Positions 5,600-18,676 of a stretch of 24,422 nucleotides of DNA are shown here, piece by piece. The notes under the pieces are model-generated. The model worked only from the letters and a program-made list of their open reading frames with translations. It was not told the origin of the DNA and ran no database searches. A program made the translations under genes and the position numbers. How positions within the stretch are numbered: the first letter of the stretch is position 1; every line of letters begins with the position of its first letter. The DNA is taken from positions 1 to 24,422 of the IMG/VR virus record IMGVR_UViG_3300017753_000096. The stretch is one strand, 5' to 3'. This DNA is from a virus.

Positions 5600-6199
5600 A
5601 TGAGTTGTCATACATTAGAGGAAGTAAAATCAGCCGTTTTATCAAAAGGATATAAATGGTTTGAAAACGGAGATTATAACTTAAACTTAGTTGGTATCCG
5701 TAACTCAGAAACAGAAAACTTAGTAACCAACAAATTTGATGATTGCGTTACTGTATCATATAAAGTCGATGGAGAGTGGAACTTCCATTGCTTTAAAGCA
5801 ACAACAGACCCAGGTACTCACTGGACTGAAAATCTTTTAAATGAAAACGGTGTTGCTATTCTAGTTCCAGACCAATATAGAGGTTCTCACACAATTGGTC
5901 TTCACCAAGGTAAATACAAAGCCCTCAAACAACAGAAATCAGTAAAAGTATACAGAGATAAAAATAAAGATGATGTATACGATTTACTTGAAGAAAACAT
6001 TCATGAGGGTATCTATGGTATAAACATCCATAGAGCAACAGCACATGGAGAGTCAAAACAAGTTGATAAATGGAGTGCTGGATGTCAAGTATTAGCCAAA
6101 ACAGCGGATTTTAATAAGTTAATGGAATTAGCTCAAAAATCAGCAGATATGTATGGTAATTCATTTACTTATACACTAATCGAATCAAAAGATATATAA
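5600..6199 (+). CDS. Candidate L,D-transpeptidase-fold cell-wall enzyme (possible endolysin)
   Basis: The 199-residue protein has no signal peptide. The C-terminal half contains GINIHRATAHG (H144) and then KWSAGCQV (S159, C162). This matches the order and spacing of the L,D-transpeptidase (YkuD) active site, where a His precedes an S-x-G-C motif holding the nucleophilic Cys. The segment VAILVPDQYRGSHTIGLHQGKYKAL (about 86-110) has the short beta-strand pattern of that fold. Such enzymes act on the peptide stem of peptidoglycan, so a phage version could be an L,D-peptidase for lysis. A strong terminator follows. The family is inferred from one motif region; another Cys-dependent peptidoglycan hydrolase remains possible. 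Confidence 0.55.
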   Translation: MSCHTLEEVKSAVLSKGYKWFENGDYNLNLVGIRNSETENLVTNKFDDCVTVSYKVDGEWNFHCFKATTDPGTHWTENLLNENGVAILVPDQYRGSHTIGLHQGKYKALKQQKSVKVYRDKNKDDVYDLLEENIHEGIYGINIHRATAHGESKQVDKWSAGCQVLAKTADFNKLMELAQKSADMYGNSFTYTLIESKDI

Positions 6200-6318: not shown

Positions 6319-6603
6319 ATGGCAAAAGAGTTAAATGAAGACACAGGGTTTAAGGTTAGTGTAAAAACCCTTGCAGGTATAGGGGTAGCGCTCGCTACTA
6401 TTATTGGGATGTGGTTTACACTTCAGGCAGATATAGCAGAAGCTAAAGCACTCCCATTACCACCAGATCCAGAAATTACTAGAATGGAGTTTGATATGAA
6501 GGACCAATTAGTCCGTCAAACAATTATGTCAACCCAAGAGGACGTTACAGAACTCAAGGAAGATCTTGATCGTATTGAGGCAAAAATAGATAAATTAAAA
6601 TAA
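6319..6603 (+). CDS. Membrane-anchored coiled-coil protein (94 aa)
   Basis: A hydrophobic segment (about residues 18-36, TLAGIGVALATIIGMWFTL) is followed by a Pro-rich hinge (LPLPPDPE) and a long charged heptad region (TQEDVTELKEDLDRIEAKIDKL). This is the layout of an inner-membrane protein with a periplasmic or cytoplasmic coiled coil, as in i-spanins and some holin partners. It opens the operon after a terminator and ends one base before the next gene. A spanin-like or lysis-accessory role is possible; the sequence alone does not decide. Confidence 0.65.
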   Translation: MAKELNEDTGFKVSVKTLAGIGVALATIIGMWFTLQADIAEAKALPLPPDPEITRMEFDMKDQLVRQTIMSTQEDVTELKEDLDRIEAKIDKLK

Positions 6604-6604
6604 A

Positions 6605-6970
6605 ATGAAATATTTAGTTACAATCCTACTGTTTCTTCTATCTGTATCAACTACCCCAACTTCAAATTTAGAAGAAAAACCCAATTTATGTAATGACGAC
6701 ATTTGTGTAATCCAGTTTAATGCTGGGTTTAATTCTGCAAATGAGGTAAAATGGTTAGATGAACTAACAGATTGTTCTACTACAACAGTAGACATTATGA
6801 AAGATCCAAATTTACCACAAGATTATAAAATAGTAGTTGTGCCCACTATCTTAATTTTAGAAGATGGCGCTGAAGTAGCGAGGTTCCAAGCAAATATTAT
6901 GATGTCTATGGAGGCTACCCAGCAAGAAGTTCAAGAATCCATAGATGAAATCATAATGAGCAAATTTTAA
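6605..6970 (+). CDS. Secreted thioredoxin-fold protein lacking the CxxC motif
   Basis: The N-terminal 18 or so residues form a signal peptide (MKYLVTILLFLLSVSTTP). The rest has thioredoxin-fold signatures: strand ICVIQFNAG at 33-41 and the cis-Pro strand VVVPTILILEDGAEVARF at 77-94 (P80). Where the active site WCxxC would lie after the first strand, the sequence reads GFNSANE, so no redox pair is present. Cys residues are at 29, 34 and 57. It cannot act as a normal oxidoreductase and may be a binding or chaperone version. Its stop overlaps the start of the 1075-aa Cys-rich protein (TAATG), which suggests the two are functionally linked (inference). Confidence 0.65.
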   Translation: MKYLVTILLFLLSVSTTPTSNLEEKPNLCNDDICVIQFNAGFNSANEVKWLDELTDCSTTTVDIMKDPNLPQDYKIVVVPTILILEDGAEVARFQANIMMSMEATQQEVQESIDEIIMSKF

Positions 6971-9900
6971 TGAAACATTTACTAACTACCCTCTTATTAT
7001 TTATTGGTCTTACAGCATTGGCTCAGCCAGCTTATTTAGATCTTTTTATTCAATTTGATAATTATCCCCAGGAGAATAGCTGGACAATTCAAGCTATATC
7101 CCCAGATCAGGATACTTCATTAGTAGCACAAAATCCCAGCTATAATTTTCCTGTGTTTCAAAATGGCACTACTACCGAAAGAATCTTACTCCAGGCAAAT
7201 ACTAATTACATATTTACTATGTTTGATGAATTTGGAGATGGGATATGCTGTGAATACGGAGAGGGATTTTTCTCCGCAGGTAATGATTGTCAGGGGCCAA
7301 TTTTTGGAGATCCCCTATTTGATTCTGGCGAAGTAAGTTATGATTTTGTATTGCAACCATGCGCCTTGCCTGTTTTTGATGTAACTTTTCAATTAGATTT
7401 AAATGGTGCCCCAGAAGAAATAATTAACCCAGAAATTAATGGTGAATTTAATGGGTGGTGTGGTAATTGTAATACTATGCAAGATGATGATGGGAATGGT
7501 ATTTGGGAAACTACTATATCCTTACCTGAAGGTACTTATCTTTGGAAATTTTCCTCTAATAATTTTCAGTTTCAAGAATCACCTGCTGGGGTTAATGAAT
7601 CTCCTTGTTTTTTTCTTGACCAAAATGGATTTGTTAATAGAACACTCACAGTAGGAGCAGAAGATGTGGTCTTACCCCCATATTGTTGGGAATCATGTTT
7701 ACCATGTGGAGGAATTCCTGGATGTACCGATCCAAATGCTCTTAATTGGAGCCCCTGGGCTAATTTTGATAATGGTTCCTGTATATCTCAGACAGTAGAA
7801 TGTGGGATTAGTGAAACTTTAATTGAAATAATAGTAACTCCTGATAATTTTGGTGGAGAAACTAGTTGGATTTTATATGGAGATAATGGGGGTATAGCCT
7901 CTGCCCCAGTAGGTACCTATGCTGGTGCTGCTCCTGGTATTCCTATTACAACTGCTATTTGTGTTCCTATTGGACAGCCTTATGACATTGTAATAGAAGA
8001 TTCGTATGGAGATGGGATGTGTGGTTCATGTTCTACAAATAACCCAAGTCTTATTAATGGTAATATAGTAATTTTAGATTGTAACGGAGATGAATTGTAT
8101 AACACACAAGATCAATACCCTGATGGGAATTTTGGTTACATAGGAGGTTCTGAGCAATTTATCCCTGCAGTATGTACAGAAATAAATGAAATTATAGGTT
8201 GTACAGATCCAAATTACATAGAATATAACCCCGAAGCTATTATAGATAATCCATTTGAATCATTTTGTCAAACTCCTATAGTTTATGGTTGTTTAGATGA
8301 TACTCAATTTAACTACAACCCAGAAGCAAATACTGAAGATGAAATAATAGTCTGTGATTTTACCTTAAAAATTACAGATGGTGTAGGTGATGGTTGGTTT
8401 GGTAGCTGGTTAGGAATTTATCAAGAAGGTTGGGTTTCACCTCAATATAAGATGGGCCCTGATGATGGTTTTGAAGAAACATTTAGTGTTCCTTTAAATT
8501 CTGTAGATGGTACTAAAATTTACTTCTTTGTTACCCCACAATCAATCAATTCAGCTCAACAATGTGGGTTTACATTAACAAACCCAGAAGATGAAGTTAT
8601 CATTGATATTCCTTTCTTTAATATAATTCCTTTTATAAATGAAAGTGGGTGGTATGTTTATGAAATTGAACCTTATTGTGGTAATTCTTGTGAACCATAC
8701 ATTTATGGGTGTACAGATCCTACAGCAGTTAATTTCTTAGAAGAAGCTAACACAGAAGATAACTCTTGTTATTATACTCCTGGATGTACTAGTGCTGGTT
8801 ATTTGGAATATTACACTCAAGGATTTGAAGCTGATTTTGATAATGGTGATTGTCAAGTATTAGCTGTATTTGGATGTACTGACCCAGATGCCTTAAATTT
8901 TGAAGAGACAGCAAACGTAGATAATGAAACTTGTGTTCCTAAAATATTTGGTTGTACTAATGAGTTAGCATTTAACTTCAACCCACTTGCTAATACAGAT
9001 GATAATTCATGCATTCCTATTATAGAGGGATGTACAGACCCAACTGCACTGAATTATAATTTAGAAGCTAACACTGAGGATTTTAGTTGTGTACTTCCTA
9101 TTTTAGGGTGTACTGATCCCGAATCTTTTAACTTTAATCTATTAGCTAATACAGATGATGGGTCTTGTGAAGAAGTAGTATTTGGTTGTACTGATGAAAC
9201 TGCTTTTAACTATGACCCACTAGCTAATACAAATGTTGGGTGTGAGTCATTTATTGAAGGTTGTACTGATAATGAAGCTTTAAATTATAATCCACAAGCC
9301 AATACAGATGATGGTTCTTGTATAGCTGCTGTGTTTGGTTGTACTGATGCTACAGCATTTAATTATGACCCATTAGCCAACACAGATAATGGATCATGTG
9401 TAGAAATAGTATTTGGTTGTTTAGATGAAACAGCATTAAATTATAATCCTTTGGCTAATACTGATAATGGATCTTGTATTCAAATAGTAGAGGGTTGTAT
9501 GGACCCGTTAGCACTTAATTATAATGAATTAGCTAATGTTGAAGATGGTAGTTGTATAGATGCTATTTATGGTTGTACTGACTCAACAGCATTTAACTAT
9601 AATGAATTAGCAAATGCTGATAACGGAACTTGTATAGATGTGGTTGAAGGTTGTACAGACCCAACAGCATTTAACTACAACCCAGAAGCCAACACTGAAG
9701 ACTTTAGTTGTATTGAAATAATATATGGTTGTACTGATCCTCAAGCAGCTAACTATGATGAAGAAGCAAATACCGATAATGGTACTTGTGAAACTGTATA
9801 TGCCAATTGTGTGGATTCAGTAGTTGAAACATACAACTTACTAGGTTTTCAAAATGAATGTTTTGCTTGGGTAATTGATGTTAGCCCAAGTTGTTGTAGT

Positions 9901-10197
9901 AATGAATGGGCTGATGGTTGTCAAACATTATATAATTACTGTGATGAGAATACAGTTACTAATATAAAAGAATTTAGTGAAACACAAATAGTTGTATTCC
10001 CTAACCCAACAAGAAATATAATTACTATAGCAAGTAGCTTGCGTATAAACGCAGTTCTATATAATTCCATAGGACAGTCCGTATTACAAGAAACTAACGT
10101 AAATCAACTTGATTTAAGTCAATTTGAGGCAGGTATTTATAACTTGATTCTAACATATAATGATCTTAAGTTTACTAAAAAAATAGTTAAGCAATGA
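6970..10197 (+). CDS. Large secreted Cys-rich GCTDP-repeat protein with T9SS C-terminal sorting domain
   Basis: The 1075-residue protein has, in order, a signal peptide (MKHLLTTLLLFIGLTALAQ); a beta-sandwich-like domain with FGDGICC (about 75-90); a possible carbohydrate-binding-like domain (FQLDLNG, EINGEFNGW, about 135-210); the first GCTDP repeat at 251; further GDG-type domains (SYGDGMC near 345 and GVGDGWFGSW near 470); and 17 GCTDP repeats in total, 12 of them tandem at 635-940 with a 26-residue period. A short Cys-rich linker and a C-terminal domain at about 998-1075 follow, with VVFPNP and an EAGIYNLIL-type strand, the type A sorting signal of T9SS cargo. In Bacteroidota such proteins cross the outer membrane and are attached to the surface or released. 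The gene is embedded between phage genes with an overlap on each side, so it is not a stray host gene. The target and use are unknown: adhesion, surface masking or superinfection exclusion are all possible. Confidence 0.85.
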   Translation: MKHLLTTLLLFIGLTALAQPAYLDLFIQFDNYPQENSWTIQAISPDQDTSLVAQNPSYNFPVFQNGTTTERILLQANTNYIFTMFDEFGDGICCEYGEGFFSAGNDCQGPIFGDPLFDSGEVSYDFVLQPCALPVFDVTFQLDLNGAPEEIINPEINGEFNGWCGNCNTMQDDDGNGIWETTISLPEGTYLWKFSSNNFQFQESPAGVNESPCFFLDQNGFVNRTLTVGAEDVVLPPYCWESCLPCGGIPGCTDPNALNWSPWANFDNGSCISQTVECGISETLIEIIVTPDNFGGETSWILYGDNGGIASAPVGTYAGAAPGIPITTAICVPIGQPYDIVIEDSYGDGMCGSCSTNNPSLINGNIVILDCNGDELYNTQDQYPDGNFGYIGGSEQFIPAVCTEINEIIGCTDPNYIEYNPEAIIDNPFESFCQTPIVYGCLDDTQFNYNPEANTEDEIIVCDFTLKITDGVGDGWFGSWLGIYQEGWVSPQYKMGPDDGFEETFSVPLNSVDGTKIYFFVTPQSINSAQQCGFTLTNPEDEVIIDIPFFNIIPFINESGWYVYEIEPYCGNSCEPYIYGCTDPTAVNFLEEANTEDNSCYYTPGCTSAGYLEYYTQGFEADFDNGDCQVLAVFGCTDPDALNFEETANVDNETCVPKIFGCTNELAFNFNPLANTDDNSCIPIIEGCTDPTALNYNLEANTEDFSCVLPILGCTDPESFNFNLLANTDDGSCEEVVFGCTDETAFNYDPLANTNVGCESFIEGCTDNEALNYNPQANTDDGSCIAAVFGCTDATAFNYDPLANTDNGSCVEIVFGCLDETALNYNPLANTDNGSCIQIVEGCMDPLALNYNELANVEDGSCIDAIYGCTDSTAFNYNELANADNGTCIDVVEGCTDPTAFNYNPEANTEDFSCIEIIYGCTDPQAANYDEEANTDNGTCETVYANCVDSVVETYNLLGFQNECFAWVIDVSPSCCSNEWADGCQTLYNYCDENTVTNIKEFSETQIVVFPNPTRNIITIASSLRINAVLYNSIGQSVLQETNVNQLDLSQFEAGIYNLILTYNDLKFTKKIVKQ
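8872..9789 (+). repeat. Twelve tandem 78-base coding repeats (GCTDP modules)
   Basis: Each unit encodes 21 residues of the form GCTDP-x-A-x-NYNP-x-AN-x-DDGSC plus a 5-residue spacer such as IPIIE or EVVFG-like strands. One unit (near 9190) is a residue short. Copies differ at many codons, so they are old duplications under protein-level selection and not a recent expansion. Five more, divergent copies lie at 7720-7782, near 8200, near 8288, at 8707 and near 8788. Two Cys per unit suggest one disulfide per module. Confidence 0.9.
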
Positions 10198-11243
10198 AAA
10201 AACTTTTAATTACCTTAATCTTATTTTGTTGTATTCCATTCTTATCACAAGCACAACAGCTTAAAGATTGGGGTAAAAAACAACTTAAATTTGCTACCTT
10301 TTATACAGCAGTAACAGGTAATAACTCACTAGCGGATGTAAGTGTTTATTCTATAAACCCATATAGTGGTATTTTAGAAGAGAACATTGAATCTACCCCC
10401 TTTGATTATACTTTTGCTTTTGGTGTTAGAAAAATTGCTCGTTTAGATTATGAAAACAGAAAAAATGTGTTCTATGATGGTACCGAAACCTCAGTTTCGG
10501 ATGCAGCTACTGTAGGTAATGTAGAGGGTTTAGAGTATCTATTTGAGTTTGATTATAAAAGACAACAAGGAAGAAAATTTGTTGATCAACAACACTTCTT
10601 AAGATATGTACATGATCATTGGATCCTGAAAGTGGAATATGTTCAGGATGGGTTTGCCGATCTAAAGTATTTTGAATCTTCACAACGTTATAGATACAAC
10701 ATAGCTAAAGAATTTTCATTAAATGCTGGTTTAGTTCAACGTTTCTCTGAACCATATGGGTTTGATCCTTTAGATGGTTTAGTAGGAGCTGATTTTACTA
10801 ACATAGCTATTGATCAAGGATACACTACTAATTTTGAAGGAGAATGGGTTAACCCAGAAGGTGAAATAATAGCTGAAAATAATATAGTGTGGAATGCAGT
10901 AGCACTTCCTAATGTATTGAATGAGTATGTTGAACAAGAAAGAGAAACATTACCTAACCAATGGAACTACTCATTAGTAATAGGATATGATTATTATCAT
11001 TACACTAAAACATTTTGGTTCCATTCTTGGGCTAGTGTATTACCACTCCACGTAAGCACTAAAAATGAATATTCATATTCTAATTTTATAGATGGTAATA
11101 CTTGGTTTGACTACACAGGTGGTTTAATTTTAGGATGGCAAGTAAATAAAAGATTAGGCCTCTTTTCAGAGGGAAAATACCATAAGTACTGGAATCGTAC
11201 ATGGCATGATTTTTCAGTTGGTTTTAATTATAGAATAATTTAA
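10194..11243 (+). CDS. Probable outer-membrane beta-barrel protein (349 aa)
   Basis: A signal peptide ends in SQAQQ (MKKLLITLILFCC, then IPFLSQAQ), typical of Bacteroidota exported proteins. The mature part is rich in aromatic residues and alternates beta-type strands and turns (YTFAFGVRKIARLDYENR, LEYLFEFDYKRQQGRKF, WILKVEYVQDGFADL, FSLNAGLVQRFS, WNYSLVIGYDYYHYTK, GLFSEGKYHKYW). It ends in an amphipathic strand DFSVGFNYRII, as expected of a barrel that closes with its last strand. It overlaps the T9SS-type gene by 4 bases and lies 12 bases before the next gene. It could be a surface receptor-masking protein or a partner of the repeat protein. No family is recognised. Confidence 0.65.
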   Translation: MKKLLITLILFCCIPFLSQAQQLKDWGKKQLKFATFYTAVTGNNSLADVSVYSINPYSGILEENIESTPFDYTFAFGVRKIARLDYENRKNVFYDGTETSVSDAATVGNVEGLEYLFEFDYKRQQGRKFVDQQHFLRYVHDHWILKVEYVQDGFADLKYFESSQRYRYNIAKEFSLNAGLVQRFSEPYGFDPLDGLVGADFTNIAIDQGYTTNFEGEWVNPEGEIIAENNIVWNAVALPNVLNEYVEQERETLPNQWNYSLVIGYDYYHYTKTFWFHSWASVLPLHVSTKNEYSYSNFIDGNTWFDYTGGLILGWQVNKRLGLFSEGKYHKYWNRTWHDFSVGFNYRII

Positions 11244-11255
11244 AACAATACAATT

Positions 11256-11477
11256 ATGGCATTCAAAGATATTTTTAAAGACGAAAACGACATTAACGAA
11301 AAATCTGTAGTAGGATTTTTAGCATTTGCAGTAATGACTTTATTTGCTTTTGTAGATCTTGCAACAGGCTATTTCGGAAAAGATCTTGTTATTAACGAAC
11401 TAATTTACAACTCATTTGTTTTTGTAACTTTAGGTTGTTTTGGGATAGCAGGAATAGAAAAATTTGCTAAAAAATAA
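11256..11477 (+). CDS. Two-helix membrane protein, holin-like (73 aa)
   Basis: Two hydrophobic segments (about residues 18-38, VVGFLAFAVMTLFAFVDLATG, and 47-66, LIYNSFVFVTLGCFGIAGIE) are joined by a short loop, with a charged N-terminus (MAFKDIFKDENDINEK) and a basic end (KFAKK). Size and topology fit class II holins, and it overlaps the nuclease gene by one base. Holins are very diverse, so the call rests on topology and context only. Other holin candidates in the window are at 4844 and 6319. Confidence 0.55.
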   Translation: MAFKDIFKDENDINEKSVVGFLAFAVMTLFAFVDLATGYFGKDLVINELIYNSFVFVTLGCFGIAGIEKFAKK

Positions 11478-16638: not shown

Positions 16639-16989
16639 ATGAGCAACCCACTAGATACCACAGTTTTTGAGGGAAAAACCGTTTCTGATCTATTTAAGGA
16701 AATCTACGGCAATTCAAAGAAAAAAGACAAACAAATCAACACTCTTATTTCTGAATTAAAACCCCTTATTCAAGACATAGGAGATGCTCCTGTTGTTGTT
16801 CCACTTATAAAAGAGTATTTAGAAATTGGTGTTAAAAATGACGAACACATCATTAAATTAACAGCTATTGTTCAAAGAATGATGAATAATACCGCTGGTG
16901 GTGGTAGTGATTCACTCCTCTCAGATGAGGAACTTAAACAACTCCAATCAATAGCGGAAGATATAGCAAAAGGAGAAGATGGCAAGTAA
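16639..16989 (+). CDS. Small structural-type hypothetical protein (116 aa)
   Basis: It starts MSNPLDTTVFEGKTVSDLF, is helical, and contains VVVPLIKEYLEIGVKNDEHIIKL, a kind of segment seen in small proteins next to the tail genes of marine myoviruses. A Gly-rich linker (AGGGSDS) precedes the acidic end. It overlaps the 565-aa gene by 11 bases, so both are co-translated. Likely a tail or baseplate accessory; the exact role is unknown. Confidence 0.7.
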   Translation: MSNPLDTTVFEGKTVSDLFKEIYGNSKKKDKQINTLISELKPLIQDIGDAPVVVPLIKEYLEIGVKNDEHIIKLTAIVQRMMNNTAGGGSDSLLSDEELKQLQSIAEDIAKGEDGK

Positions 16990-18676
16990 TATTCAAAATA
17001 CTGGTGTTTCAACTAGTACCTCATCTACAGGTGGTACTCGCTCTAATGTTGTTAGGGTATTTGATATTGTTCTAGATGCAAATCACCCTATTTTTGATAA
17101 CATCCAATATGACCCCACATTAGTTGGAATGGTATTTTATGGAGATAAGGATTTAGATATTACTACTGTTAATAGTTTATCCTTACCCAAAGCCCTACCT
17201 AAATTTGGTCCTCAAAAAATACCTCTTAAATATGAATGTGTAAAGATAGAAACTGGTCCCTCACCCGATATTTATACCGATATTGGTGGTAATAATGCAT
17301 TTAATTATGTTTATTACGGTGAGGTAGTACCCGTTTTTGGAAATTCTGTCCATAATGCTTTACCAAGCCAAAAAAATTTAGCTTCAACCACTCCTACATC
17401 TGAAGAGTCGGTTTTAGCCTCTAATGGTACCCCAAATCAATCCCAACCAAAAGAATTATCTTTAGATGACACTGGAAATTTTCAAGCCCAAGATAATGTT
17501 AAAAACCTTCAACCATATGCAGGTGATGTAATCACAGAAGGTAGAGCAGGTCAAACAATTAGGATGGGTACAACTAATAAAGAAGGAGCTAATAACTGGA
17601 GTGATGGTGATACTTTTGGGGACCCAGTAATGATTATGAGGGTTGGTCAATCAGAGAATCAACAAGGTTCAACTGTGGTTGAGGATGTAAATGGGGATGC
17701 TTCATCTATTTATATGTTTGCAAATCAAAAACTCAATAACATACAACTTACAACTACAAATTTTGAGTCTTGCCAAGCAACCTATACAGAAGCAACTGTA
17801 CCCACAGTTCAATTAACAATATCCCCATTAGAGTCTTTACCCCCTAAACCTATTCCTATCGCTCCACAAGAACCATTCTTGTTAACCGGTTCTATTATAA
17901 AAGAAACCTCACCACCACCAGTAACATCTTCTTTTTCTGATGATGAGTTAGTGGATCCTGTGTTTGCTGCGTTGGCTGAGGTTGAGGAAGAAGGTCTATT
18001 AATAATAGAAACCACTCCTGGATGGGAATCAAATGAACCAGATACTAATACCCCCATCTCAGATGTCCCTACAAATAACTTAAATGAAAAAGATGCTGCT
18101 AGAGTTCTTAACCCTAACAGGATAGGGTATCAAATAGCTACTAAAACCCCATTATATAGTAAATATAAATTTGATGTTGGTTTTGGAAGAGACGATGCCA
18201 CAGAAGAGGACTCTAAATTATCAAAAATGCAACCTTTTATAGATAATGGTACCATAGTTGAAGTTGGAGATGCAAACACTAATTCCAATAAATTTAGTAG
18301 ATGGATGGATACTGCAATAATATTTAAGGGTAAGTACTATTTACATAAGACCGCAGCCCCACCATTTTTTAATTGGTTAAATGAATTAGATTATAATAAT
18401 ATAAATTATCACATAACTTCCGCTCTTAGGTTTGGAAAAAACACAGGAGCAGGACCTCATGGATATGGATTAGCTGTGGATTTTGGTAATTTACATCAAA
18501 TAGTAGATGGTAGTACAAATCTTATAACTAATAAACAAGCTAGAATTAATTCAACTGAATATAGAGAAATTGCTGAAATAGGTAAAAAATATGGATGGTA
18601 TAATCCTTGGAGGTTATCAGATAGTGGTGGTGATATAGATGAAATATGGCATTTTGAATACTGGGGCGAAGTTTAA
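16979..18676 (+). CDS. Tail-associated protein with M15 (D-Ala-D-Ala carboxypeptidase-type) domain
   Basis: The 565-residue protein has an N-terminal structural part: FDIVLDANHPIFD near the start, and a conserved-looking AGDVITEGRAGQTIRMG at about 181-198, with a Pro/Ser-rich linker around 280-340. The C-terminal domain of about 100 residues has the M15 zinc-peptidase signature: GPHGYGLAVDFG with H494 and D501, and EIWHFEYWG with E555 and H558. M15 peptidases cut D-Ala-D-Ala or L-Ala-D-Glu links in cell wall peptides, so this is probably the tail-tip enzyme that opens the wall at infection, the counterpart of T4 gp5 lysozyme. Its place next to baseplate genes supports this. Confidence 0.8.
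   Translation: MASNIQNTGVSTSTSSTGGTRSNVVRVFDIVLDANHPIFDNIQYDPTLVGMVFYGDKDLDITTVNSLSLPKALPKFGPQKIPLKYECVKIETGPSPDIYTDIGGNNAFNYVYYGEVVPVFGNSVHNALPSQKNLASTTPTSEESVLASNGTPNQSQPKELSLDDTGNFQAQDNVKNLQPYAGDVITEGRAGQTIRMGTTNKEGANNWSDGDTFGDPVMIMRVGQSENQQGSTVVEDVNGDASSIYMFANQKLNNIQLTTTNFESCQATYTEATVPTVQLTISPLESLPPKPIPIAPQEPFLLTGSIIKETSPPPVTSSFSDDELVDPVFAALAEVEEEGLLIIETTPGWESNEPDTNTPISDVPTNNLNEKDAARVLNPNRIGYQIATKTPLYSKYKFDVGFGRDDATEEDSKLSKMQPFIDNGTIVEVGDANTNSNKFSRWMDTAIIFKGKYYLHKTAAPPFFNWLNELDYNNINYHITSALRFGKNTGAGPHGYGLAVDFGNLHQIVDGSTNLITNKQARINSTEYREIAEIGKKYGWYNPWRLSDSGGDIDEIWHFEYWGEV

Follow-up and report, generated by a model that had tools for sequence, protein, structure and literature searches.

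We analyzed a 24,422-base virus record of IMG/VR (IMGVR_UViG_3300017753_000096; G000), hereafter the window, in which one gene (6970–10197) encodes a cargo protein for the type IX secretion system (T9SS), with a C-terminal sorting domain (CTD) of type A. The gene stands in a module with three others, for an outer-membrane β-barrel, a thioredoxin-fold (Trx) protein and a coiled-coil protein, and the four recur together across a large group of uncultured phages. We propose, at a little under even confidence, that the module is a surface-display operon, in which the cargo would be exported by the T9SS of the host and retained by the barrel on the infected cell, its purpose being the more conjectural part. 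An earlier reading of the same DNA, the original prediction, had described the cargo as phage-encoded and equipped for export by a type A signal of the T9SS; this stands, but the four-gene module had been overlooked. The features of the module are listed below.

6319..6603, + strand: 94-aa protein with one N-terminal transmembrane (TM) helix and a coiled-coil-like C-terminus (topology by eye)
6605..6970, + strand: putative exported protein of thioredoxin fold, both active-site Cys replaced by Asn (PF00085, E 7e-4)
6970..10197, + strand: T9SS type A cargo, 1075 aa, open reading frame (ORF) (translation, sorting-domain profiles)
6970..7023, + strand: Sec signal peptide, aa 1–18, with Gln at the mature N-terminus (sequence pattern only)
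7435..7563, + strand: weak CBM48/AMPK-CBM-like stretch, aa 156–198 (PF02922, E 0.0057, under the Pfam cut-off)
7720..9804, + strand: 17 GCx[D/N/S] modules, aa 251–945 (sequence pattern, predicted structure)
9808..9942, + strand: conserved Cys-rich linker ahead of the CTD, aa 947–991 (CFAWVIDVxPxCC..EWxxxCQxLYNYC)
9994..10194, + strand: T9SS type A C-terminal sorting domain, aa 1009–1075 (TIGR04183, PF18962)
10194..11243, + strand: 349-aa outer-membrane β-barrel carrying a signal peptide (overlaps the cargo gene by ATGA; AF2 model)

The C-terminus of the cargo, whose comparison with the sorting-domain models TIGR04183 and PF18962 the original prediction had proposed, passed the curated cut-offs of both (E 3.7e-11, 42.8 bits, NCBI cut-off 23; and E 9.2e-9, 35.9 bits, cut-off 27, respectively). 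TIGR04183 also matched 43 of the 45 aligned phage homologues at E ≤ 0.001. Structure prediction of the CTD (pLDDT mostly 76–87) gave an Ig-like β-sandwich fold, which Foldseek paired with the CTDs of NucA (8glk_D; TM-score by target length 0.79, rmsd 2.2) and FspA (8glj_D; TM-score by target length 0.74), both solved inside the translocon of Flavobacterium johnsoniae, a system described previously (PMC10994853). Export of the cargo through the T9SS is well supported by these computations, and we regard it as very probable.

At the other end of the protein, signal peptide cleavage was read from the sequence pattern between MKHLLTTLLLFIGLTALA and Q, which fits the Q-rule for signal peptides of Bacteroidota (PMC5837995). 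Of 113 intact cargos, 106 follow the Q-rule pattern, as do 139 of 151 barrels; for the 499 other ORFs at these loci the figure is 87. When a hydrophobic stretch is required as well, 101 of the 113 cargos still fit vs. 12 of the 499 other ORFs. The 1075-aa protein with a Sec signal peptide and a type A CTD is therefore as originally described. Between the two signals lie 17 Cys-containing modules; the predicted number of repeats holds, but only 8 read exactly GCTDP, the other 9 being variants of the pattern GC[TLM][DNS]. A second Cys follows the first by 18–22 residues in all 17, and contiguous modules are mostly spaced by 25–26 aa. Starting at aa 580, the last 14 follow one another in an almost unbroken array; two further β-domains lie in between, and the protein contains 59 Cys in total. 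In the linker ahead of the CTD, C947, C964, W967, C975, C976, W980, C984, and C991 are invariant columns across 45 homologues. Intact cargos among the phage clusters range from 411 to 1572 aa and carry 2–35 modules.

Profile searches of Pfam, NCBIfam, and PHROGs identified no catalytic domain in the cargo and no glycoside hydrolase or PA14 domain; the Pfam matches consist of the CTD and sub-threshold CBM-like stretches. For the stretch resembling CBM48, Foldseek found the SEX4 starch phosphatase (e.g., 4pyh), and the region of approximately aa 136–272 is 40–52% identical to cellular Bacteroidota proteins. Modeled in full length, with 45 relatives as input, the cargo reached a pLDDT of 68.5 and a pTM of 0.30, so only single domains of this model were used, and whole-cargo Foldseek matches to large proteins (A2ML1, myoferlin, and similar) were dismissed as meaningless.

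Repeats resembling GCTDP also occur in a tail-region protein of Synechococcus phage S-CAM3 that is annotated as virion structural (L269:3572–5122), and the repeat is thus not specific to T9SS cargos. This raises the question of whether the cargo could itself be a tail or decoration protein of the virion. We consider this very improbable, as the signal peptide, together with a T9SS CTD that is actively conserved, would take the protein out of the cytoplasm, where tails are assembled.

Linkage of the four genes was established from loci in IMG/VR. Scans with the cargo as bait (16 loci) and with the barrel alone as bait (78 loci) both gave the coiled-coil, Trx-fold, cargo, and barrel genes together, and profile scans found at least 536 stretches with the Trx gene and at least 565 with the barrel gene. 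Overlapping loci were merged into 160 non-redundant clusters, each of which was searched with a profile for every gene of the module. The complete set is present on one strand in 125 of the 160 clusters (82 + 4 + 20 + 19), a tally that is conditional on the bait (barrel, Trx, or cargo), the other three genes not having been used for selection. Where all four are found, their order is always a rotation of cargo-barrel-coiled coil-Trx. Most of the clusters with fewer genes are apparently cut by the end of the locus or contig. In two apparent exceptions (L093 and L259) a cargo-like gene is recognizable by eye, its CTD being too divergent for the models, and L124 is seemingly a true exception within the stretch examined.

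The cargo ORF of the window overlaps the upstream ORF (6605–6970) by 1 base and the downstream ORF (10194–11243) by 4 bases, in agreement with the original prediction, and of 115 pairs in which cargo and barrel genes are adjacent, 63 share exactly 4 nt. The host-like parts of the cargo could suggest that a host gene had been joined into a phage contig by misassembly, but independent virus contigs repeat the arrangement, short gene overlaps included (more than 100 non-redundant clusters), which leaves such an artifact a negligible probability. Both the absence of chimeric assembly, which had been argued from the overlaps, and the occurrence of the same gene in other phages are in this way confirmed.

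The ratio of non-synonymous to synonymous substitution rates (dN/dS) was determined against close relatives, six for the cargo and barrel and five for the small genes. Values were 0.07–0.14 for the barrel, 0.10–0.16 for the CTD, 0.08–0.11 for the coiled-coil gene (one pair undefined), and 0.07–0.27 for the Trx gene, vs. 0.28–0.40 for the N-terminal 250 aa of the cargo. The ratios are rough, as dS is above 1 in several comparisons, but their order is consistent. Purifying selection acts on the barrel, the CTD, and the coiled-coil gene, and the N-terminus of the cargo diverges faster; the export tag is preserved while the exposed part of the cargo changes. It is likely that the four genes form one functional unit.

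The AF2 model of the barrel (pLDDT 75) contains approximately 12 long strands, and the protein is a conserved family among the relatives. Its structural matches are generic outer-membrane barrels, such as OmpG (4ctd_B in VIA-align; Z 12.1, rmsd 5.2, 187 residues aligned) and NanC (E 7e-7); in a viral structure library there was one good match, A0A516LKJ4 (E 1e-24, 22% identity). No NCBIfam model matched at E ≤ 1, which places the barrel outside TIGR03519 (PorP/SprF) and NF033710 (PorV). In hhalign, 24 signal-peptide columns and nothing more aligned with PorP, and the probability for PorV was 1.4%. An assignment to PorP/SprF or PorV, which had been considered, was rejected for want of sequence or profile support. 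Neither family is among the structural matches listed, which by itself says little on kinship. Since PorP also fails to align with PorV, a distant kinship of the barrel to one of them is possible. OMPLA was likewise set aside: its chains are among the many barrel matches (Z ~10), and no HxSNG-type motif was seen by eye. The cultured phage records contain no close relative of the barrel.

For the protein encoded at 6605–6970 the PF00085 match lies under the cut-off. In nearly all of 27 relatives the CxxC motif is replaced by FNAx[FW]NxxN, whereas the cis-Pro motif VPT is invariant. As the CxxC motif is lost, disulfide oxidoreductase activity is not expected. In the search for cultured relatives, a Trx relative had no more than weak matches (E 0.2–0.6), to thioredoxins of Streptomyces phages and to one phage that is uncultured. 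Of the four proteins, the coiled-coil one shows the highest conservation (mean column identity 73%); profile searches returned no family match, and it has no close relative in cultured phages. Judged from the alignment, its layout resembles that of an inner-membrane spanin.

Two neighboring genes bear on the timing and nature of the module:

5600..6199, + strand: endolysin-like gene (phrog_33083 endolysin, E 2.1e-18)
11256..11477, + strand: holin-like gene, 73 aa, two TM helices (function inferred from the TM pattern only)

A two-TM holin-like gene lies near the module in 59 of the 160 clusters, at a median distance of 13 nt, and in other lineages a DUF5675 gene, a suspected lysin, is found downstream. 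With the spanin-like layout of the coiled-coil protein, these neighbors would suit a lysis module, in which the coiled-coil, Trx-fold, and barrel proteins would disrupt the outer membrane in place of spanins and the cargo would be a surface component or trigger. A hypervariable, repeat-rich surface protein that uses a dedicated export machine of the host would be an odd part of such a module, and no outer-membrane spanin lipoprotein was seen, although no lipobox search was made; we consider a lysis function unlikely, yet the strongest of the alternatives. For the proposed display operon, the adjoining endolysin gene suggests late expression.

Among 39 barrel-bearing virus records, 36 contain a TIGR04183 match (E ≤ 0.001), a single one each, and in 9 of the 39 module records a type B sorting domain (TIGR04131, gliding-associated) scores over the cut-off (e.g., L260–L263). 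Some module phages are T4-like, as marked by Gp23 or a tail sheath; nine module records of 55–68 kb have another capsid (phrog_13704), with Gp23 or sheath in none of the nine. As the barrel tree requires at least two changes between these groups, the module is probably old or has passed from one lineage to another. The cellular distribution differs between cargo and barrel. In a scan of one genome per species, covering 84,980 species, the barrel was found in 7 contigs only, some of them apparently misbinned. For one metagenome-assembled genome (MAG) of the Flavobacteriales, it was present in 1 of the 295 genomes of the class, on a module-bearing contig. Cargo-type sequences, mostly repeat matches, were found in 52 of 52 genomes of the family of this MAG; PorV and PorP/SprF were present in 21 of 21 sampled members. 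From these counts we infer that the cargo derives from host-type parts and that the barrel belongs to phages. The secreted-protein parts that the cargo shares with hosts, including the weak CBM48-like stretch, would also suit a gene that gives infected cells adhesion or glycan binding, so that the phage benefits via its host. We regard this as improbable: the cargo has no detected enzyme domain, the rarity of the barrel in cellular genomes argues against a common prophage life, and the lysis neighborhood points to late expression.

The proposed display operon would work as follows. In candidate hosts among the Bacteroidota, the cargo would cross the inner membrane by Sec, be recognized by the host T9SS (SprA/PorV) via its type A CTD, and emerge outside the cell as a modular protein rich in disulfides. 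The phage barrel, whose gene is translationally coupled to that of the cargo, would sit in the outer membrane and most likely receive or retain the cargo at the surface, a role modeled by analogy on the PorP/SprF shuttle, which serves the cargo encoded beside it. The Trx-fold protein may supply the periplasmic part of this assembly and the coiled-coil protein its inner-membrane part. With lysis genes as neighbors, the module would probably be expressed late, and the remodeled surface of the infected cell would most likely stop superinfection, or keep progeny phages from attaching to infected cells or debris. Phage-resistant F. columnare carry mutations in gld/spr genes of the T9SS and gliding machinery (PMC9233685), so the surface built by the T9SS matters for adsorption and its alteration is a plausible way to block it. 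That the module blocks adsorption is a tentative proposal, which we hold with less confidence than the display itself; of the uses put forward in the original prediction, namely surface masking, attachment, and binding to debris, masking or exclusion is suggested to be one of the better ones.

The same mutants and the genuine CTD could be taken to mean that the cargo competes for the T9SS, flooding or jamming the translocon or its carriers and so stripping the host of adhesins that serve other phages as receptors. Jamming, however, would require no ectodomain so long, diverse, and rich in Cys, and no conserved barrel as partner, and PorV is apparently in excess for type A cargo (PMC12618676), which makes such competition improbable as well. 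Some observations weigh against the display operon. The barrel is, by sequence, not recognizable as a homologue of PorV or PorP/SprF. Type A CTDs exit via SprA with PorV (PMC12618676), and since PorV is present in the likely hosts, a dedicated carrier is not strictly needed. Finally, some relatives have the barrel beside a tail-fiber-like gene and not beside a cargo.

The window also encodes baseplate wedge proteins, ThyX, and an SNase-like nuclease. Its closest relative in the barrel tree (L034, 89% identity) belongs to a record (G005) that carries a T4-type Gp23 capsid; as DNA, the window has no match among 50,697 phage records. A tail-region protein (16979–18676) has a C-terminal VanY/M15 peptidase match just under the cut-off (E 2.2e-5) and is perhaps a tail-borne peptidoglycan enzyme. 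The 552-aa protein encoded at 2954–4612 matches CglB weakly (E 0.0017) and contains a DLSGSMKG motif that by eye resembles a VWA metal site. The 5′-truncated ORF at 1–573 has a dockerin-like end, DLNQDNSIDTLDLLLLLSGYGG (Dockerin_1, E 0.036 only), and phmmer gave no relative of it among the module loci. Elsewhere, genes resembling laminin G, possibly tail fibers, lie beside or inside the module (L077:6770–8008, L089:9616–10368, and L082:2098–7959). In L181 the module is adjoined by a type B T9SS cargo gene (7339–8247, − strand; CHU_C, E 1.7e-16), which overlaps an M43 metallopeptidase gene (8244–9977, − strand) whose product matches EF-hand weakly and ends in a dockerin-like tail, a candidate phage-encoded secreted protease. 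A 621-aa protein reading as a DnaK-type chaperone is encoded near the module of another virus contig (L036:6481–8346).

A search of the open-access literature, with subscription journals and preprints not covered, yielded no report of the barrel, the Trx-fold protein without its active-site Cys, or the four-gene module, and a search for "GCTDP" returned nothing relevant. A phage-encoded T9SS cargo as such has already been reported: type A cargos of Cryophage, called unique there (Nat Commun 2020, PMC7468147). Cryophage is likewise a phage of Bacteroidetes with T9SS type A domains on cargos that vary between phage variants, and superinfection exclusion was suggested there also. Its cargos are an endoglucanase, a GH39 protein, and a PA14 protein, whereas the cargo of the window has no detected enzyme and is tied to the barrel, Trx-fold, and coiled-coil proteins across many phages; in the part of that account available to us a barrel partner goes unmentioned. 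Display by a phage via a secretion machine of its host thus has one brief precedent that we found, and a conserved four-gene module in a large uncultured phage group would make it a general strategy. The module would give several unnamed gene families a first function, and it would offer naturally diversified type A CTDs for work on the T9SS.

Among cellular systems, the SprB-SprF-type operons of F. johnsoniae are comparable, in which the gene for a type B surface protein directly precedes that for its cognate outer-membrane barrel shuttle of the PorP/SprF family; the shuttles also set the final location, and some operons add a periplasmic anchor, PorE (PMC12618676). The module differs in being phage-encoded, in its CTD of type A and not type B, and in a barrel for which neither sequence nor profile comparison detects a relation to PorP/SprF or PorV. 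It is conceivable, though we would not favor it at even odds, that many uncultivated Bacteroidota phages of at least two capsid types share a trans-envelope display operon with an exclusion role, as a counterpart of SprB-SprF/PorP; its phage-specific barrel, aided by the periplasmic and inner-membrane partners, would take over the cargo from the host T9SS and fasten a fast-evolving protein to the infected cell. With ordinary flavobacterial type A cargos the protein of the window has the GCTDP-like repeats and the CTD type in common, but it is phage-encoded and linked to phage-specific partner genes. Llp of phage T5 is a small phage-encoded envelope lipoprotein that blocks the receptor. The role proposed here, a change of the host surface against further adsorption, is similar; in place of a small lipoprotein, the window encodes a large protein secreted via the export machine of its host.

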